Below are positions 39,451 through 45,990 of a stretch of DNA of 64,000 bases, in pieces. A program made the translations under genes and the position numbers. The notes beneath the pieces are model-generated. The model had not been told where the DNA came from. It did no database searches and saw only the letters and a list, made by a program, of their open reading frames with translations. Source of the DNA: Williamsia soli (GTDB lineage Bacteria > Actinomycetota > Actinomycetes > Mycobacteriales > Mycobacteriaceae); the NCBI RefSeq assembly GCF_017377795.1, contig NZ_JAFRDR010000001.1, positions 949,369-1,013,368 on the forward strand, read 5' to 3'. How positions within the stretch are numbered: the first letter of the stretch is position 1; every line of letters begins with the position of its first letter.

Positions 39451-40866
39451 ATGCGAAAAGCCACGCTCACGAAATTCAACCGTAATCCGCAGAACAAACG
39501 TACAAAGAGCTTGCTGATCGCCGCCACATCAGTTGGTGCGGTGTGCCTCGCGGCGATCACATTCACCGCCACCACCGCGTCTGCGGCAGCGGTCAATCCA
39601 GGTCTGGGGACCGCGACCAGCTTCGGCGTGTTGGCGGGCGCCGGCATCACGAATGCGGGGACCACAAACGTCGCCGGTGACATCGGCAGTCATCCGACCG
39701 GTTCCATCACCGGGCTCGGTCCGGGCGCCAATTCGATCAACTTTTCCGGGGTCAATCACGGAAACGACGAGGTGAGCCAGCGGGCGAAGCTCTCCGCCGA
39801 GAGCGCGTACGGCAATCTCGCGGGCCAGCAACCACCGATCGAAACGGCTGTCGAACTCGGCGGCCAGACTCTGGTGGGCGGCGTGTACAACTCCGGCGGA
39901 GCGTTGGGCCTCACCGGCACTCTCACGCTCGACGGAAAGAACAATCCGGATTCGGTGTGGGTCTTTCAAAGCGCCTCGACGCTCACCACAGCTGTGAACA
40001 GCTCGGTGTCATTGGTCAACGGCGCTCAGGCGTGCAACGTCTTTTGGCAGGTGAGCAGTTCAGCCACTCTCGGTTCCAATACTGACTTCGTCGGCAACAT
40101 CCTCGCCCGAGCCAGCATCAACGTCGGAACCGGTGCTGATATCGATGGCCGTCTGATAGCTCTGGATGGTTCAGTCACGCTGCTGGCCAACGACATTACA
40201 CGGTCGGCCTGCGCGCCGCCGATCACGACAACGACGGACGAGACGACTACAACGGACGAGACGACTACGACCGACGAGACGACTACGACCGACGAGACGA
40301 CTACGACCGACGAGACGACTACGACGGACGAGACGACTACGACGGACGAGACGACTACGACCGACGAGACGACTACGACCGACGAGACGACTACGACCGA
40401 CGAGACGACTACGACGGACGAGACGACTACGACGGACGAGACGACCACGACGGACGAGACGACCACGACCGACGAGACGACCACGACCGACGAAACAACC
40501 ACGACGGACGAGACAACCGACAGCACGATAACGAACGAGACCATTCCTACCGTGCCGACCACTGACGAGACCACCGTGCCGACGTTGCCGTCGATACCCG
40601 CTCTCCCGTCATTGCCGAACATTCCGGGTCTGCCGTCTATCCCAGGATTGCCGTCCACCCCAGGATTGCCGGGTACTACACAACCGGCACCTGAAGCCGG
40701 GCCGGCCATCACGCCGGAGGCGCCCTCACCAGGCAAGCAGGTTCCCAACGTGCCGCGCGGTTCAATCGACACCGGTGACGGCAGCGTCGTCGCACGCGCG
40801 ATACTCGATCCCCGGTGGCTCCGCCAACTCGGATACGCGACAACATGCACAGCTTGGGCGCGCTGA
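39451..40866 (+). CDS. DUF3494 ice-binding-fold surface protein with TTTTDE repeat stalk
   Basis: 471 residues. Sec signal peptide with a long basic N-region, ending near 'TASAAA' (about residue 47). The DUF3494 beta-helix domain spans about residues 50-255: 'SFGVLAGAGITNAGTTNVAGDIGSHP', 'GQTLVGGVYNSGGALGLTGTLTLDG', 'DSVWVFQSASTLTT' and 'VGNILARASINVGTGADIDGRLIA' regions. Next come 16 TTTTDE hexapeptides, then a Pro/Leu-rich stretch with 'LPGTT' at residues 406-410 and the tail 'GSIDTGDGS'. Members bind ice or act as adhesins. The stop overlaps the sortase start (TGATG), so it is the likely sortase substrate, although no membrane anchor follows the motif. Confidence 0.88.
   Translation: MRKATLTKFNRNPQNKRTKSLLIAATSVGAVCLAAITFTATTASAAAVNPGLGTATSFGVLAGAGITNAGTTNVAGDIGSHPTGSITGLGPGANSINFSGVNHGNDEVSQRAKLSAESAYGNLAGQQPPIETAVELGGQTLVGGVYNSGGALGLTGTLTLDGKNNPDSVWVFQSASTLTTAVNSSVSLVNGAQACNVFWQVSSSATLGSNTDFVGNILARASINVGTGADIDGRLIALDGSVTLLANDITRSACAPPITTTTDETTTTDETTTTDETTTTDETTTTDETTTTDETTTTDETTTTDETTTTDETTTTDETTTTDETTTTDETTTTDETTTTDETTTTDETTTTDETTDSTITNETIPTVPTTDETTVPTLPSIPALPSLPNIPGLPSIPGLPSTPGLPGTTQPAPEAGPAITPEAPSPGKQVPNVPRGSIDTGDGSVVARAILDPRWLRQLGYATTCTAWAR
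40225..40512 (+). repeat. Sixteen tandem 18-bp repeats encoding TTTTDE
   Basis: In-frame copies of an 18-bp unit (ACG/ACC-ACT/ACC-ACG-ACG/ACC-GAC-GAG pattern). Neighbouring units differ mainly at third positions. The count can easily vary between strains by slippage or recombination. Confidence 0.93.
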
Positions 40867-41510
40867 TGCGCACGTCGGCAACGGCCCCAAGGAAGTACGG
40901 CCTGCGGCCCGCCGGTCGTGTGGCGGCCCTCGTTGTCGCCATCCTGGCGGTACTGACGTTCGCGGTAAGCGGGTGCGCAAACGATGTGGCTTCGGACGTC
41001 GGCGAGGTGCCGATCTCAGAACTGGCCGTCGATCCGGCTGTCAGCAATGCAGGACTGACGAAGTCGGTACCGAGTCGGATCGAGATCCCCTCGATCGACG
41101 TGGACTCGCCGCTGATGGACCTGGGACTCGATGCCGATGGCGCCCTGCAGGTTCCGAAGGCGGGATTCCCCGCAGGCTGGTACACAGGAGCACCCACGCC
41201 CGGCGAGCAAGGGCCGTCCGTCATCGCCGGTCACGTCGACTGGGCCGGCGCGCCCGGGGTGTTCTATGAGCTCCGCAACCTGAAGCCGGGCGCTGAGATC
41301 GCCGTGACGCGGCAGGACGGCAGTATCGCGAAGTTCGAAGTCACTGAAGTGACAGCGTTCCCCAAGGACGAGTTTCCGACGGACCTGGTCTACGGCACCC
41401 TCGACTACGCGGGTCTGCGCCTGGTCACCTGCGGCGGCGCATTTGATGAAAACGCCGACAGCTACGACGACAACATCGTGGCATTCGCAAAATTGGTGGG
41501 TACGGGCTAA
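40866..41510 (+). CDS. Class F sortase
   Basis: 214 residues from ATG 40866, which overlaps the upstream stop. The N-terminus has a hydrophobic helix ending 'LTFAVSGCAND', which fits a lipobox (Cys about 37), so it may be lipid-anchored. Sortase core: 'RIEIPSIDVDSPLMDLGLDADG', catalytic His in 'SVIAGHVDW', catalytic Cys in 'LRLVTCGGAFD' and the class F ending 'YDDNIVAFAKL'. It should covalently attach a surface protein, most likely its upstream neighbour. Confidence 0.92.
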   Translation: MRTSATAPRKYGLRPAGRVAALVVAILAVLTFAVSGCANDVASDVGEVPISELAVDPAVSNAGLTKSVPSRIEIPSIDVDSPLMDLGLDADGALQVPKAGFPAGWYTGAPTPGEQGPSVIAGHVDWAGAPGVFYELRNLKPGAEIAVTRQDGSIAKFEVTEVTAFPKDEFPTDLVYGTLDYAGLRLVTCGGAFDENADSYDDNIVAFAKLVGTG

Positions 41511-41770: not shown

Positions 41771-42319
41771 ATGAAGAAGCAAACAAAAGCAGCAGTGGCC
41801 GCCGGCGCAGGGGCTGTTCTCCTCCTGGGTGGTCTCGGCAGTTTGGCATTCTGGAATGACAGTGCCACCTCTCCCGGTGGGTCGATCAGCTCGGGCGAAC
41901 TGTCACTGGACGATTGCACCGGAGGTGGGGTCTGGACGGACGTGAACAACGACACCACGATCGCCAGTATTGCTGCGTTCCGCATCGTCCCGGGCGACGT
42001 CGTGTCGTACGCCTGCGAAACGGCGGTCAATGCCACCGGCGACAACCTGACTGCAACCCTGTCGGCCAATATCGGTGCAGTGACGGGCGACGCCGAGCTT
42101 CAGGCGGCGCTGAACCCGTCGGTCACCGCGACCGCCAACGGCGTTGACCTCCCGAGTGGCCCCGCCGGGGTGCAGATCACTCCCGCCGAAGTGTCACAAC
42201 CCATCACGGTCAATGTGACGATGACATTCGACCCGGCCACGGAGGGTCTCACAGCGCAGAATCAGACCGCCAACCTTGCGGAGACCACTCTGACCCTGCA
42301 ACAGAACGTCAACCCCTGA
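41771..42319 (+). CDS. SipW-dependent secreted protein, TasA/CalY-like (alternate signal peptide type)
   Basis: 182 residues. The N-terminus 'MKKQTKAAVAAGAGAVLLLGG' (about residues 1-21) continues into 'LAFWNDSATSPGGSISSGELSL'. This is the alternate-type signal peptide: the cleavage region is followed by W-x-D-x-A and a S-G-x-L-x-L strand. The mature part is all-beta and Thr/Ala-rich, with two Cys. Relatives form fibres or are matrix proteins in Bacillus. First gene of a five-gene operon; the next start is 3 bases after the stop. Confidence 0.85.
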   Translation: MKKQTKAAVAAGAGAVLLLGGLGSLAFWNDSATSPGGSISSGELSLDDCTGGGVWTDVNNDTTIASIAAFRIVPGDVVSYACETAVNATGDNLTATLSANIGAVTGDAELQAALNPSVTATANGVDLPSGPAGVQITPAEVSQPITVNVTMTFDPATEGLTAQNQTANLAETTLTLQQNVNP

Positions 42320-42322
42320 TCT

Positions 42323-42853
42323 ATGAAGAAGCTTTGGCTGAGCGCTGCGGTCGCCATCGCGATCACAGCGCTCGGCGTGATCTCAGCACAACAAACAGGT
42401 GCATCCTGGCGCGATCAGGAGCAGACCGGCAGCGCGACTGTCACCTCGGGCCAGCTGAGAATCCTGGCCGGTGGGTCCCAGAACTACGCCTGGAACGACT
42501 TCGGGGGCGCCGGTCTGGTCCCTGGTTCGGTGGTACAACGTCCGCTGACCATCTCGGTGGTCGGCGACACGAAGGCGGCTTACCGACTTGTGTCGGTGGT
42601 TCCCACCACGATTGATGTACCACTCACCTTCAGCGCGTCGGTTGTCAGCAGTGTCGCCGGCTGCCCGGCAAGTGGCAGTCCATCGGGTGTCGTCGCCGGG
42701 CCGTGGACGGTGTTTCCGGCACCGTCCACGGCACGAACGGTGCAGGCAAACACCTCGGAGGTCTGGTGTTTACGCGCAACTGTCGGTGCCGGCGCTTTGC
42801 AGAACAAGACCACCAAAGTCACCCTCAATTTTCGGGCGGATCAACAGCTATGA
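42323..42853 (+). CDS. SipW-dependent secreted protein, second substrate
   Basis: 176 residues. Short signal peptide ('MKKLWLSAAVAIAITALGV'), then 'GASWRDQEQTGSATVTSGQLRIL', the same W-R-D and T-S-G-x-L pattern as its neighbours. Two Cys in the beta-rich mature part. The stop overlaps the signal peptidase start (ATGA). Confidence 0.78.
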   Translation: MKKLWLSAAVAIAITALGVISAQQTGASWRDQEQTGSATVTSGQLRILAGGSQNYAWNDFGGAGLVPGSVVQRPLTISVVGDTKAAYRLVSVVPTTIDVPLTFSASVVSSVAGCPASGSPSGVVAGPWTVFPAPSTARTVQANTSEVWCLRATVGAGALQNKTTKVTLNFRADQQL

Positions 42854-43458
42854 CCGTATCTGTGTCAGTGGAGGAGTCCGCCGGACCTCTCTGGTGGGTC
42901 CGCACGGCTCTGTCGTGGGCGTTGCTGTTCGCCATGCTCGCGCTCCTCGTGATCACGTTCCTCATCCCGGCGGCCGGCAATGCCGAGCGGTTCACCGTGC
43001 TCACCGGGTCGATGCAGCCGACGTATCCGCCGGGAACGCTCATTGTCGTCAGACCGGCCGACGCCGACGACCTCCAGATCGGCGACGCCATCACTTACCA
43101 GCTGCAGACCGGCCGGCCGGCGGTGGTCACTCACCGGATCGTCGCCACGTCGCAGAACACGCTGGGTGAGCGCACCTACACCACGCAGGGTGACGCCAAC
43201 GACGTCCCGGATCCCAAACCGGTTGTGGTCGAGCAAATCCGAGGAGAGGTCTGGTACAGCATCCCCTACCTGGGACACGTCAACAATTGGTTGACCGGCC
43301 AACACCGCGCCTGGGTCATCGGTGCCATCGTCACGGGTCTGTTCTCCTACGCGATCGTGATGACCGGCGGAAGCATCCGGGACCGGCGGCGGAAGCGGCG
43401 CGAACCCGCGGACGAACGAGTCGTGAGAGAGGATTCGGATCATGGCGCCCGGCGCTGA
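42850..43458 (+). CDS. sipW: SipW-type signal peptidase I
   Basis: 202 residues from ATG 42850. N-terminal helix about residues 18-40; catalytic Ser54 in 'LTGSMQPTYPPG'. His95 in 'VVTHRIV' replaces the general-base Lys, as in the SipW/eukaryotic-archaeal type. 'GDAITYQLQTG' and 'TTQGDANDVPDPKPV' form the remaining boxes. A C-terminal helix (about 164-184) and a basic tail follow. It processes the adjacent atypical signal peptides. Overlaps the next gene by 17 bases. Confidence 0.9.
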   Translation: MTVSVSVEESAGPLWWVRTALSWALLFAMLALLVITFLIPAAGNAERFTVLTGSMQPTYPPGTLIVVRPADADDLQIGDAITYQLQTGRPAVVTHRIVATSQNTLGERTYTTQGDANDVPDPKPVVVEQIRGEVWYSIPYLGHVNNWLTGQHRAWVIGAIVTGLFSYAIVMTGGSIRDRRRKRREPADERVVREDSDHGARR

Positions 43459-44080
43459 CTGGACCGCCGTCCGAACTGCGTTCATGGGGTCGCTCGGGGT
43501 TCGAGTGCGCGCGATCCTGGCCCTGGGCATCGTCTTGGGACTCGGAGCCGTCGGGACGATGGCGTTGTGGAGCAACTCCGCCGGCGCCACCTCCGGCGAC
43601 TTCAAGACCGGCGTGGTGGACCTTCGTGTCAACGGGGTCAAGAGTTACACGTTCAGCGGTGCCACGGGTCTGAGCATGACCAACATGCTGCCCGGCGACA
43701 GCAGGGCAGCGACGTTGCAAGTACAGAACACCCTGTCGACGCTTCCGCTGATCTACACCATGACGGCCCGCACTGCCGCAGGAAGTCCGGCGCTCACCAA
43801 CTTCCTTCGGATGGCCGTATTCGCCAGTAGCGCACCGACAAACGGCACAACCAACGGCTTGGCCACGGGAAGTTGCGGCGGCCCGCAACTCGGAACTGCA
43901 ATGCTGCAGGCCGCGGCTACGGTCCCGGTCATCACCGCGGCCCAGCCGCTGGGTACAACCGCTGAAACGAACACGCAGAACCTCTGCTTCGTGGTCACCC
44001 TCGTCCCGGCGACGCCGCTGAGCGTGCAATCTCAGACCCTGCAATCGGTGACCCTGACCTTCAATGCGACGACAACATGA
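43442..44080 (+). CDS. SipW-dependent secreted protein, third substrate
   Basis: 212 residues. Hydrophobic leader ('ILALGIVLGLGAVGTMALW'), then 'WSNSAGATSGDFKTGVVDLRV', the conserved post-cleavage pattern. The mature part has 'MTNMLPGDSRAATLQVQNT', typical of the TasA/CalY beta sandwich ('lxPGdxxxxxlxVxN'). Two Cys. Coupled to both neighbours. Confidence 0.82.
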   Translation: MAPGADWTAVRTAFMGSLGVRVRAILALGIVLGLGAVGTMALWSNSAGATSGDFKTGVVDLRVNGVKSYTFSGATGLSMTNMLPGDSRAATLQVQNTLSTLPLIYTMTARTAAGSPALTNFLRMAVFASSAPTNGTTNGLATGSCGGPQLGTAMLQAAATVPVITAAQPLGTTAETNTQNLCFVVTLVPATPLSVQSQTLQSVTLTFNATTT

Positions 44081-45990
44081 CCGACACCGACAGCAATCGA
44101 CCTGTCCGCCGCCGCGCACGCATCGTCCGCGAGGTGGCGCTGACGATGGGCGCCGTCACCGGCCTCTTGTGCATCATCACTGCCGCGGCTGCTCTGCTGT
44201 TCGGCATCACACCGCTGATCGTTCAGTCGGGGTCGATGGAACCGACCATGCCGACGGGCGCCTTGGCCATCGCACGCACGGTCCCCGCTACCGACATCCG
44301 ACCCGGCGACGTCATCAGCATCACGAACCAACACGGCATCCACATCACCCACCGCGTCGTATCGGTCGACTCGACCACGGAAAAGGCTGCAGCACTCACC
44401 CTTCAAGGTGACGCCAACAGCGTTCCGGACGCCCAGTCCTACGTGATCACCGCCGCCGAGCGGGTCGTCTTCCACGTCGACGGGCTCGGGTATGTGGCCG
44501 CTTGGCTTCACACTCCCGCCGCTAAAGTCCTCGGCGGACTGGCGGTGGTCGCGCTGCTGTGGCTCGTGGTCTTCCCCGCCGGCCGTCGGCGGTCGAACAA
44601 GGCCCGCCCGCCGACTCGCCCGCGCAAGCCACAACACCTCGCAAGCAGTGCCTCGTCCCTCGTAATTGTCGGACTCGCAACAGCATTGGCGGTCGTCGCC
44701 GGCAATGCTCAGGGATCCGCGGCGGCCTATACTGATTCGGCTACGGCCACCACGGGTTCGTTCGCGTCTCGCAGCGATTTCGTCCCGCGGTTGAACGATC
44801 CATTTTTCGGGTTGACCTACGTCACCTGCACCAACAGCACGTTGACGAGTCCTGCCGTGGTGACACTGGACTGGAAGCACCTCGGCGCTCCCTACCAGTA
44901 CCGGATCATCCTTCGCGACCTCTCGGGCAATGTGTGGCGAACCGTCGACGTCAACCCCGGATCAGCAGCTGTCGGTTCGACTCTGTCGGCAACTCTCGGC
45001 GCCAGCGGATTTCCGATTGACATCGTTTCGTGGGACTACGATGCCGAGATTCATACGATGCTTCCCGGGGGTGCTGTTTCTGCGGGCTGGCGTGGCTATC
45101 GTGTGTACAAGAGTTTGTATTCGTCCAACCTGCAATGCCGTTTCGGCCTGGAGACATCCGGGGCCACGGCCTACATCCCGCCACCGGCGTCCATCACGTG
45201 CGTGACGAATACTGCGCAGAAGACTGCCACGTTCTCGTGGCCGCACCTTTCCGGGTACACCTACCGCTTCATAGTGCGGGACGCGACCACCGGCAGCATT
45301 GCATACACGTCGAACATCTTGACGGCCGGCGCTACGCCCGCAGGGCAAGCGGTGACGAAGACACTTGCCTACAGCGAACTCACGGCCGCACATCTGAGCG
45401 GCACCGGTGCGGTTGTCGAGGTTCGTACCCGCGTGAACGACACCACCCAGTCGACAGAGTTTGTATCCCGGCAGGTGACTGCCAGTGCTGCCAACGGCGT
45501 GGCATGCGTAGCGCCCGCAGCAGGTGCCCGGATGGCCGCACCCACCACGACGACGAGCCCCGGCGGCACGTCGTCGCCGACGCAAAGTTCTACAACTGCC
45601 GATACATCACCGTCTGCCGCACCGCCCGTGACGACGAGTACTACGCCGACCACCCCGACCACAACCACAACAACGACCACGTCAATGACCACGTCGACTC
45701 CCACGTCGACCTCGACCACCACCGCTGCACCGACATCGCCGGCCGAGGAGGCACTGTCGGCGACCACGATCTCGTCGACCGGAAACTACTCGGCTCAGTT
45801 GATGCAGACCGCGTCCGGCCCGGCGGTGATCATCCGCAGCGCGGACGGGGTGGAGGTCCACCGCGTGTCGGCGGCGCTCGACGACAGCCTGCAGTGGGTT
45901 CCGGGTTCAGACGAATTGCGAGTGATCAGCGCGACGGGATCGGTCACCATCAGCCGCCAATCCGGAGTGTGGGTGACAACGCCGAGCTGA
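44077..45990 (+). CDS. SipW-type signal peptidase fused to a substrate-like extracellular region
   Basis: 637 residues. Residues 1-175 are a SipW peptidase: first helix about 22-45, Ser53 in 'QSGSMEPTMPTG', His92 in 'IHITHRVVS', 'TLQGDANSVPDAQSYVI', and a helix about 150-167. After a basic loop comes a third helix, 'LVIVGLATALAVVAGNAQG', then 'AAAYTDSATATTGSFAS', which resembles the cleavage region of a SipW substrate. The rest is extracellular: two related beta modules (about 235-350 and 360-480, each with 'ITCVTN' or 'VTCTNS' starts), a Thr/Ser/Pro mucin-like stretch (about 490-555), and a final beta domain. So protease and apparent substrate share one chain. Confidence 0.87.
   Translation: MTDTDSNRPVRRRARIVREVALTMGAVTGLLCIITAAAALLFGITPLIVQSGSMEPTMPTGALAIARTVPATDIRPGDVISITNQHGIHITHRVVSVDSTTEKAAALTLQGDANSVPDAQSYVITAAERVVFHVDGLGYVAAWLHTPAAKVLGGLAVVALLWLVVFPAGRRRSNKARPPTRPRKPQHLASSASSLVIVGLATALAVVAGNAQGSAAAYTDSATATTGSFASRSDFVPRLNDPFFGLTYVTCTNSTLTSPAVVTLDWKHLGAPYQYRIILRDLSGNVWRTVDVNPGSAAVGSTLSATLGASGFPIDIVSWDYDAEIHTMLPGGAVSAGWRGYRVYKSLYSSNLQCRFGLETSGATAYIPPPASITCVTNTAQKTATFSWPHLSGYTYRFIVRDATTGSIAYTSNILTAGATPAGQAVTKTLAYSELTAAHLSGTGAVVEVRTRVNDTTQSTEFVSRQVTASAANGVACVAPAAGARMAAPTTTTSPGGTSSPTQSSTTADTSPSAAPPVTTSTTPTTPTTTTTTTTSMTTSTPTSTSTTTAAPTSPAEEALSATTISSTGNYSAQLMQTASGPAVIIRSADGVEVHRVSAALDDSLQWVPGSDELRVISATGSVTISRQSGVWVTTPS

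Follow-up and report, generated by a model that had tools for sequence, protein, structure and literature searches.

A SipW-type signal peptidase fused in-frame to its own apparent substrate in Williamsia soli

Signal peptidases are usually viewed as acting in trans on other proteins, and SipW of Bacillus subtilis is a separate enzyme without an ectodomain. In B. subtilis, TasA subunits polymerise via an N-terminal donor strand (PMC9674648). TasA receives its first strand from TapA, which is present in few copies, is itself a substrate of SipW and has an Ig domain and flexible arms; its gene overlaps sipW (PMC10151520). The TasA site, with Phe at P2', is a poor substrate for LepB, but SipW processes it (PMC10269814). 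In B. cereus the TapA-like task falls to another protein, CapP (PMC13082335). Thus, filament initiators differ between species. Here we analysed a window, i.e. the whole stretch of 64,000 nt, from Williamsia soli (assembly GCF_017377795.1, contig NZ_JAFRDR010000001.1, positions 949,369-1,013,368, forward strand). It contains a gene in which a SipW-type peptidase is fused in-frame to its apparent substrate, a predicted surface protein that in relatives is encoded by the next gene. We consider it fairly likely that Ser53, of the same or of a neighbouring copy, cuts this chain after Ala216 and so frees a TapA-like ectodomain.

Peptidase and ectodomain in one chain

The fusion passed the cut-off of TIGR02228, the family of endoplasmic reticulum (ER)-type/SipW signal peptidases (63.2 versus 51.85 bits), and failed that of NF046067, the Bacillus SipW equivalog (48.1 versus 190 bits). 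With the serine, the histidine and two aspartates all present, its SipW part is predicted to be catalytically intact. A preliminary description of this DNA had given the coordinates, the frame and the length of the gene correctly. It had claimed a complete SipW catalytic part, and this was borne out by the TIGR02228 match, by Ser53 and His92 at the places named and by the presence of the transmembrane segments TM1 and TM2. The further hydrophobic helix which it reported was found as a third segment (TM3) at about residues 191-210; this ends in SAA/AYTDSATATTG, residues 217-231 being AYTDSATATTGSFAS. Extracellular beta domains and a mucin-like stretch were also found, over about 405 residues where about 420 had been claimed. 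As had been proposed, the ectodomain was compared with structure databases. In the fold search with the model of the whole fusion, FN3 domains dominated the matches; beta domain 1 matched only within two-domain alignments, at a root-mean-square deviation of 12-17. The ectodomain sequence gave chance matches only against the PDB (best E 0.43). According to a hidden Markov model (HMM) of the C-terminal beta domain (cterm), this domain is common to the fused relatives and to 8 of 16 split ones.

The same fusion, which the preliminary description had suggested seeking in other genomes, is present in Williamsia, Rhodococcus and Prescottella. A protein search returned 44 matches. Twenty-three clusters (P0002-P0024, 556-672 aa) align over 55-100% of the query; the named ones come from these three genera, and their records read 'signal peptidase I' or 'hypothetical protein'. 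A second fused locus of 503 aa lies elsewhere in the same genome (L067, G000:C24). Searches at genus level matched in 8/9 genomes, the own one included and G004 with a stand-alone SipW only. Matches were found in 95/201 genomes of the family and in 33/118 of the class, stand-alone SipW being counted too at both levels. Then 53 stretches were fetched, picked from the match lists for long or short frames. SipW rows were defined by a sip HMM at E < 1e-30 (n = 53). They comprised 29 fused and 16 split rows, a ratio which is not a prevalence because the stretches were picked. Four rows belong to another SipW lineage (L060, L069-L071), two are short and lie next to a fused one (L081, L097), one is inverted and alone (L077) and one is cut by a contig end, its frame open into TM3 (L083). 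The ectodomain (ecto) or the cterm HMM also matched 27 of the 29 fused rows (E < 0.05).

We looked for start codons within the frame. Between TM2 and the TM3 core, in-frame ATG, GTG or TTG codons are absent from the window gene and from L005, L063, L064 and L068. In those five the ectodomain could therefore hardly be made outside the fusion, and an internal start that yields a separate ectodomain was rejected for them. ATG codons do occur there in other fused loci (e.g. L062, L099, L107), for which a separate start is possible.

Split relatives and the third helix

At 16 loci the SipW gene, here SipW-B, stops after TM2, its second helix, and what comes next is encoded by a gene of its own. The predicted start of this follower overlaps the SipW stop by 4-14 nt in 15 of the loci: it lies at -4 nt in L072, L075, L078 and L086, at -8 nt in ten loci and at -14 nt in L082. 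L073 has its start at +10 nt, and L090 (-8) has an alternative start at -23. The followers, 332-403 aa long, begin with a signal peptide made up of a basic n-region and a hydrophobic core, and this ends, e.g., in TSA/AFQDTAQATSG, VA/AFTDVASA or TSA/AWQDT. Thus, the segment that matches the third helix of the fusion is an N-terminal signal peptide in split relatives, and the third helix stands at a signal-peptide position. The claim that a SipW is joined to its own apparent substrate gained support in this way, relatives encoding both as separate, mostly overlapping genes.

The likeness was controlled with an HMM of fusion TM3 segments and one of separate substrates, each run against 100 shuffles of the N-terminal 85 residues of every follower. 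The TM3 HMM scored the real sequence above all shuffles in 13 of 16 followers and the separate-substrate HMM in 10 of 16; 179/1600 and 78/1600 shuffles, respectively, reached the real score. The cterm HMM (E < 0.05) matched eight followers (L072, L073, L075, L078, L079, L080, L086, L087), four of which were also matched by the ecto HMM. Ten followers were aligned; they partly share a W-x-H...Y...H-T-V-N...W-R-G-like segment, and most have a Thr-rich stretch and a WI(V/T)-type end. A weight matrix of substrate sites gave low scores for the first five split signal peptides (-8.2 to 5.2). It misplaced two of these, each with an extra residue, and the HMM test was used instead.

In a tree of 60 SipW domains (31 fused and 16 split rows among them; quick method, support by the Shimodaira-Hasegawa-like approximate likelihood ratio test only) the fused and split states alternate. 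Four changes, which may run either way, are needed, three of them forced by starred branches. A single indel near the overlap of a few bases between the frames could convert one state into the other.

The third helix itself has the character of a signal peptide. The hydrophobic core of fused TM3 has a median length of 15 residues (8-24, n = 29), that of split signal peptides also 15 (12-27, n = 16; p 0.69). The TM2 core is longer (median 18; p 0.0016 versus fused TM3), and TM1 has 30; as the rows are related, these p values are only approximate. For human signal peptidase, h-regions shorter than 18 residues are acceptable, and the c-region has to provide about five residues (PMC13385932). Among 51 unique fused junctions from 59 rows, P1 is Ala in 48, and in the three exceptions (L111, P0023, P0027) the scan probably misplaced the window. 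Thr occupies P3 in 43/51. At P1', Ala (37), Val (6) and Pro (4) were found, and P2' is aromatic in 33 and Leu in 11.

The preliminary description had seen a likeness between this junction and the cleavage regions of neighbouring SipW substrates; it goes beyond chance. We trained an HMM on separate substrates only (n = 19) and ran it on each junction and on 40 shuffles of it. The window junction, taken as a 90-residue fragment, scored 14.1 bits versus 0.1 for the best shuffle. In 53 of 56 fused proteins the best match of this HMM lies at the junction; 45/56 beat all 40 shuffles, and 63 of 2240 shuffles reached the real score. The match to the whole window protein is weaker than that to the fragment (9.0 bits), and it ranks third among the 627 open reading frames of the window, a weak match (domain E 0.042). 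One fusion, P0029, is matched by TIGR04088 at its junction (residues 197-230, 21.1 bits versus a cut-off of 19) and passes TIGR02228 as well.

Selective constraint was followed along the chain by the ratio of nonsynonymous to synonymous rates (dN/dS). Between the window and L005 it was 0.20 for SipW, 0.51 for the linker, 0.17 for TM3 plus motif and 0.21 for the ectodomain. Eight pairs were run, each with few sites, and in 5 of the 6 pairs with both values TM3 plus motif lies below the linker. Taken together, and as judged from these sequence comparisons, the junction is an internal SipW-type signal peptide and is most likely still cut.

Proposed cleavage and release, and competing explanations

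The following order of events would fit. Held by TM1 and TM2, the catalytic domain would face the outside and the Arg-rich loop the inside; by the positive-inside rule, TM3 would cross from inside to outside. The SAA/AY site would thereby reach the outer membrane face, the side on which the active site lies. Cutting after Ala216, by Ser53 of its own copy or of a neighbouring one, would leave a three-helix SipW in the membrane. The freed part would start at Ala217 with a peptide beginning AYTDSATATTGSFASR; it would hold both beta domains, the Thr-rich arm and the domain at the C-terminus, and its ratio to the peptidase would be fixed at 1:1. As the most speculative step, filaments of the TasA-like subunits encoded next to the fusion may receive their first donor strand from the freed N-terminus, which resembles the N-termini of these subunits. 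On account of this likeness, of the TasA/TapA precedent and of the position at the end of an operon with TasA-like substrates and a second SipW, we propose that the fusion joins the peptidase to a TapA-like initiator; the analogy suggests a role in starting filaments.

A bolder version, which we hold only tentatively and rather doubt, is a self-processing polyprotein. Here, the cut would occur in cis after membrane insertion, the signal peptide would be kept as third helix, and the cut would start a filament at the membrane with one initiator per peptidase. In some lineages Pro at P1' would turn the fusion into a permanent base.

Several results weigh against cleavage and release of a TapA-like ectodomain. 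The cores of separate substrates are longer than fused TM3 (median 19, 14-30, n = 19). Pro is found at P1' in 4/51 junctions, including the second fusion of the own genome (L067, GTLA/PLTD), and Pro at this position disfavours cleavage (PMC10269814). Some members, this second fusion included, may therefore be uncut anchors. In 11/56 fused proteins at least one of 40 shuffles reached the score of the real junction. TIGR04088 did not match the window fusion at E up to 1 and matched only 2/27 members of the set A1, namely P0029 and, by inference, P0025; of ten split followers it matched one, below the cut-off (16.4 versus 19 bits). The less typical end GTMANPTD occurs in four split signal peptides (L079, L080, L087, L088). 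L085, L089 and L090 were not distinguished from shuffles by the TM3 HMM, and in eight of 16 followers ectodomain homology was not detected by HMM; these eight are tied to the fusion by position and, mostly, signal peptide only. In the pair L092/L095, dN/dS of TM3 plus motif exceeds that of the linker. In the model, TM3 has a predicted local distance difference test score (pLDDT) below 55, and the model thus says nothing on TM3 docking. Finally, TapA was not among the matches listed in the fold search with the fusion's model, and the TapA-like role is drawn only from operon context and fold class. As an observation in its own right, L067 offers a natural uncleavable candidate within the same genome.

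The strongest competitor is cleavage of the junction in trans by SipW-A, the stand-alone peptidase encoded at 42850-43458. The fusion would then be only a device for stoichiometry and co-translation. All 29 fetched loci that contain a fusion also carry another SipW gene in the same orientation, which makes this a real rival, and substrates of one operon presumably share peptidases. Yet a fused peptidase without a task at the junction should decay, whereas its catalytic residues are kept in 29/29 rows and its dN/dS is 0.20 (window versus L005). It may be retained for other substrates. Overall we rate cutting by SipW-A as possible, though rather unlikely.

Somewhat less probable still is that TM3 is a plain membrane anchor and the uncut ectodomain a tethered module of the surface or the filament base. 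The fusion alone already provides membrane tethering, and a tethered initiator would keep the filament base at the cell. The four Pro at P1', the own genome's paralogue among them, and the non-aromatic P2' in 18/51 junctions point the same way. However, the TM3 core is as long as split-gene signal peptides and shorter than TM2, Ala is kept at P1 in 48/51 junctions, and TM3 plus motif is more constrained than the linker in 5/6 pairs.

The SipW part might also be inactive as a peptidase and act as a chaperone-like assembly factor, for which SipA of streptococcal pili is a precedent (PMC4049620). We regard this as improbable: Ser, His and both Asp are kept in 29/29 fused rows, and the catalytic residues give no sign of a peptidase made inactive. 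The last alternative, that the genes are really separate and the fusion is an artefact of sequencing or gene calling, is hardly credible: relatives do hold separate genes in the same order, as the preliminary description had envisaged for a refutation, but the sequencing error at the junction that it had coupled to this is absent, given that many genomes carry the fusion. An uninterrupted frame is present in the window, 29 fetched rows and 23 database clusters, five loci lack an in-frame start before the TM3 core, and dN/dS is below 1 across the junction in all pairs where it is defined, so that a sequencing error or a mis-called start was rejected.

Operon context and comparison with known systems

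The fusion is the last of five genes that run head to tail on the plus strand (Table 1). The last four overlap, by ATGA at 42850, by 17 nt at 43442 and by ATGA at 44077.

Table 1. Positions in the window of the fused gene, its parts and the other genes of its operon.
Feature	Position	Strand	Remarks
Fused gene	44077..45990	+	637 aa, single open frame
SipW/ER-type signal peptidase part (TM1, catalytic domain, TM2)	44077..44586	+	residues 1-170
Ser53, predicted nucleophile	44233..44235	+	kept in 29/29 fused and 24/24 unfused rows
His92, predicted general base	44350..44352	+	kept in 29/29 fused and 24/24 unfused rows
Asp112 ... Asp118	44410..44430	+	kept in 29/29 fused and 24/24 unfused rows
Arg/Lys-rich loop, predicted cytoplasmic, n-region of internal signal peptide	44584..44646	+	topology inferred from positive-inside rule
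TM3 / internal SipW-type signal peptide	44647..44724	+	residues 191-216, hydrophobic at about 191-210
Predicted cleavage site Ala216/Ala217, Tyr218 at P2'	44722..44727	+	junction statistics; TasA site (PMC10269814)
Would-be mature N-terminus AYTDSATATTGSFASRSDF, probably donor-strand-like	44725..44781	+	likeness to neighbouring TasA-like N-termini
Beta domain 1, probably FN3-like	44779..45162	+	predicted model me47e57efa0a8
Beta domain 2, FN3-like	45166..45492	+	predicted fold
Thr/Ser/Pro-rich mucin-like stretch, predicted disordered	45514..45741	+	residues ~480-555; pLDDT 27-36 at 481-550
C-terminal small beta domain	45754..45987	+	pLDDT 90-93 at residues 561-610; cterm HMM
SipW substrate, TIGR04089 type	41771..42319	+	169.4 bits, cut-off 60
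Putative SipW substrate, weak	42323..42853	+	TIGR04089 20.2 bits, under cut-off 60
SipW-A, stand-alone second SipW	42850..43458	+	TIGR02228 95.5 bits, frame tested from 42703; start predicted
Upstream SipW substrate, TasA/camelysin-like	43442..44080	+	TIGR04088 26.4 bits, cut-off 19

The substrate directly upstream of the fusion scored below the cut-off of PF12389 (camelysin; 13.8 versus 22.5 bits); its relative P0059 reached 27.0. Its model (pLDDT 77) matched best an archaeal bundling pilus (7ueg, E 1.2e-4), then the TasA fibre (8aur, E 3.9e-4, TM-score 0.40), so that it has a fold like that of subunits which form filaments by donor strands. The further fold matches, all with E of at least 0.01, were mixed, a Sulfolobus filament and many chaperone-usher pilins among them. 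With the TIGR04088 match, the camelysin match of P0059 and the 7ueg and 8aur folds, the locus looks like a TasA-type filament operon. Such TasA-like operons are thereby indicated in Williamsia, Rhodococcus and Prescottella.

Beside the operon, at 39451-41510 of the window, a sortase gene (PF04203, E 1.7e-23) overlaps the gene of an ice-binding-like protein (PF11999, E 1.1e-56). The latter contains a long TTTDE repeat and has the C-terminal sequence PRGSIDTGDGS. We take the two to be a probable pair of sortase and substrate, going by the meaning we assume for this C-terminal motif.

Other SipW genes showed further arrangements. Class-wide, 6 of 19 loci have a long extension behind SipW (L112, L114, L115, L116, L127, L129). 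By eye, L112, L114 and L115 have SipW-type junctions before ectodomains; in L127 and L129 the linker is long and a clear site is lacking. In these five distant relatives SipW domains are joined to other extracellular-looking modules, and P0030 and P0033 are similar cases. The architecture seems to be reused with several cargoes. P0031, P0032 and L116 have C-termini that by eye resemble sorting signals (LPITG or LAGTG, a helix and Arg in P0031 and L116, weaker in P0032); as Pfam and NCBIfam left them unconfirmed, they were not used. The other SipW lineage (L060, L069, L070, L071; 211 aa) comes from genomes of the same genus. There, a frame whose signal peptide is SipW-like (TLAAWGDK) comes next, at +3 or +4 nt; in L071 it is interrupted after 81 aa, and in the other three loci it extends over 597-606 aa. 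In P0025 (Rhodococcus qingshengii) a substrate with a SipW-type signal peptide precedes SipW and the middle looks out of frame, probably a frameshifted record.

The preliminary description knew of no peptidase of this architecture. This agrees with the open-access literature, where the titles and abstract starts of the matches listed held no peptidase-substrate fusion and no SipW in kin of Rhodococcus; subscription journals and preprints lie largely outside this search. Literature joining TasA, camelysin and Actinobacteria yielded, within the same open-access scope, only work on a Bacillus relative. With enzyme and substrate in one chain and split relatives as natural controls, cis cleavage is directly testable. 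The same family would allow experiments on what becomes of an internal signal peptide and on how SipW is coupled to the start of filaments.

How does the fusion compare with known systems? Viral polyproteins have internal signal peptides which are cut by a separate host signal peptidase. They share with the fusion an internal signal peptide between two modules, whereas the fusion carries the peptidase within the chain. Haloarchaeal SipW-type peptidases with PF17231 (P0035-P0038, P0041) also have a C-terminal extension behind SipW. Unlike that of the fusion it contains further hydrophobic helices and, by eye, lacks a SipW-type junction, and these proteins were set aside as a different architecture. 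The TIGR04088 and TIGR04089 proteins have in common with the fusion a signal peptide and the start A[FWY]x[DN]...TG; theirs is N-terminal in a separate protein, that of the fusion internal to a peptidase. Closest is the tapA-sipW-tasA operon of B. subtilis. It shares the TIGR02228 family, the Ser-His type, probably TasA-like substrates within the operon and overlapping genes, and both TasA and the fusion's junction have an aromatic residue at P2'. TapA, likewise a SipW substrate, resembles the apparent substrate part of the fusion in its Ig-class beta domain, its flexible arms, probably a donor-strand-like N-terminus and the overlap with sipW (PMC10151520). However, TapA is a separate gene upstream with one V-set Ig domain, whereas in Williamsia the apparent substrate, with two beta domains and a C-terminal one, is fused behind SipW.

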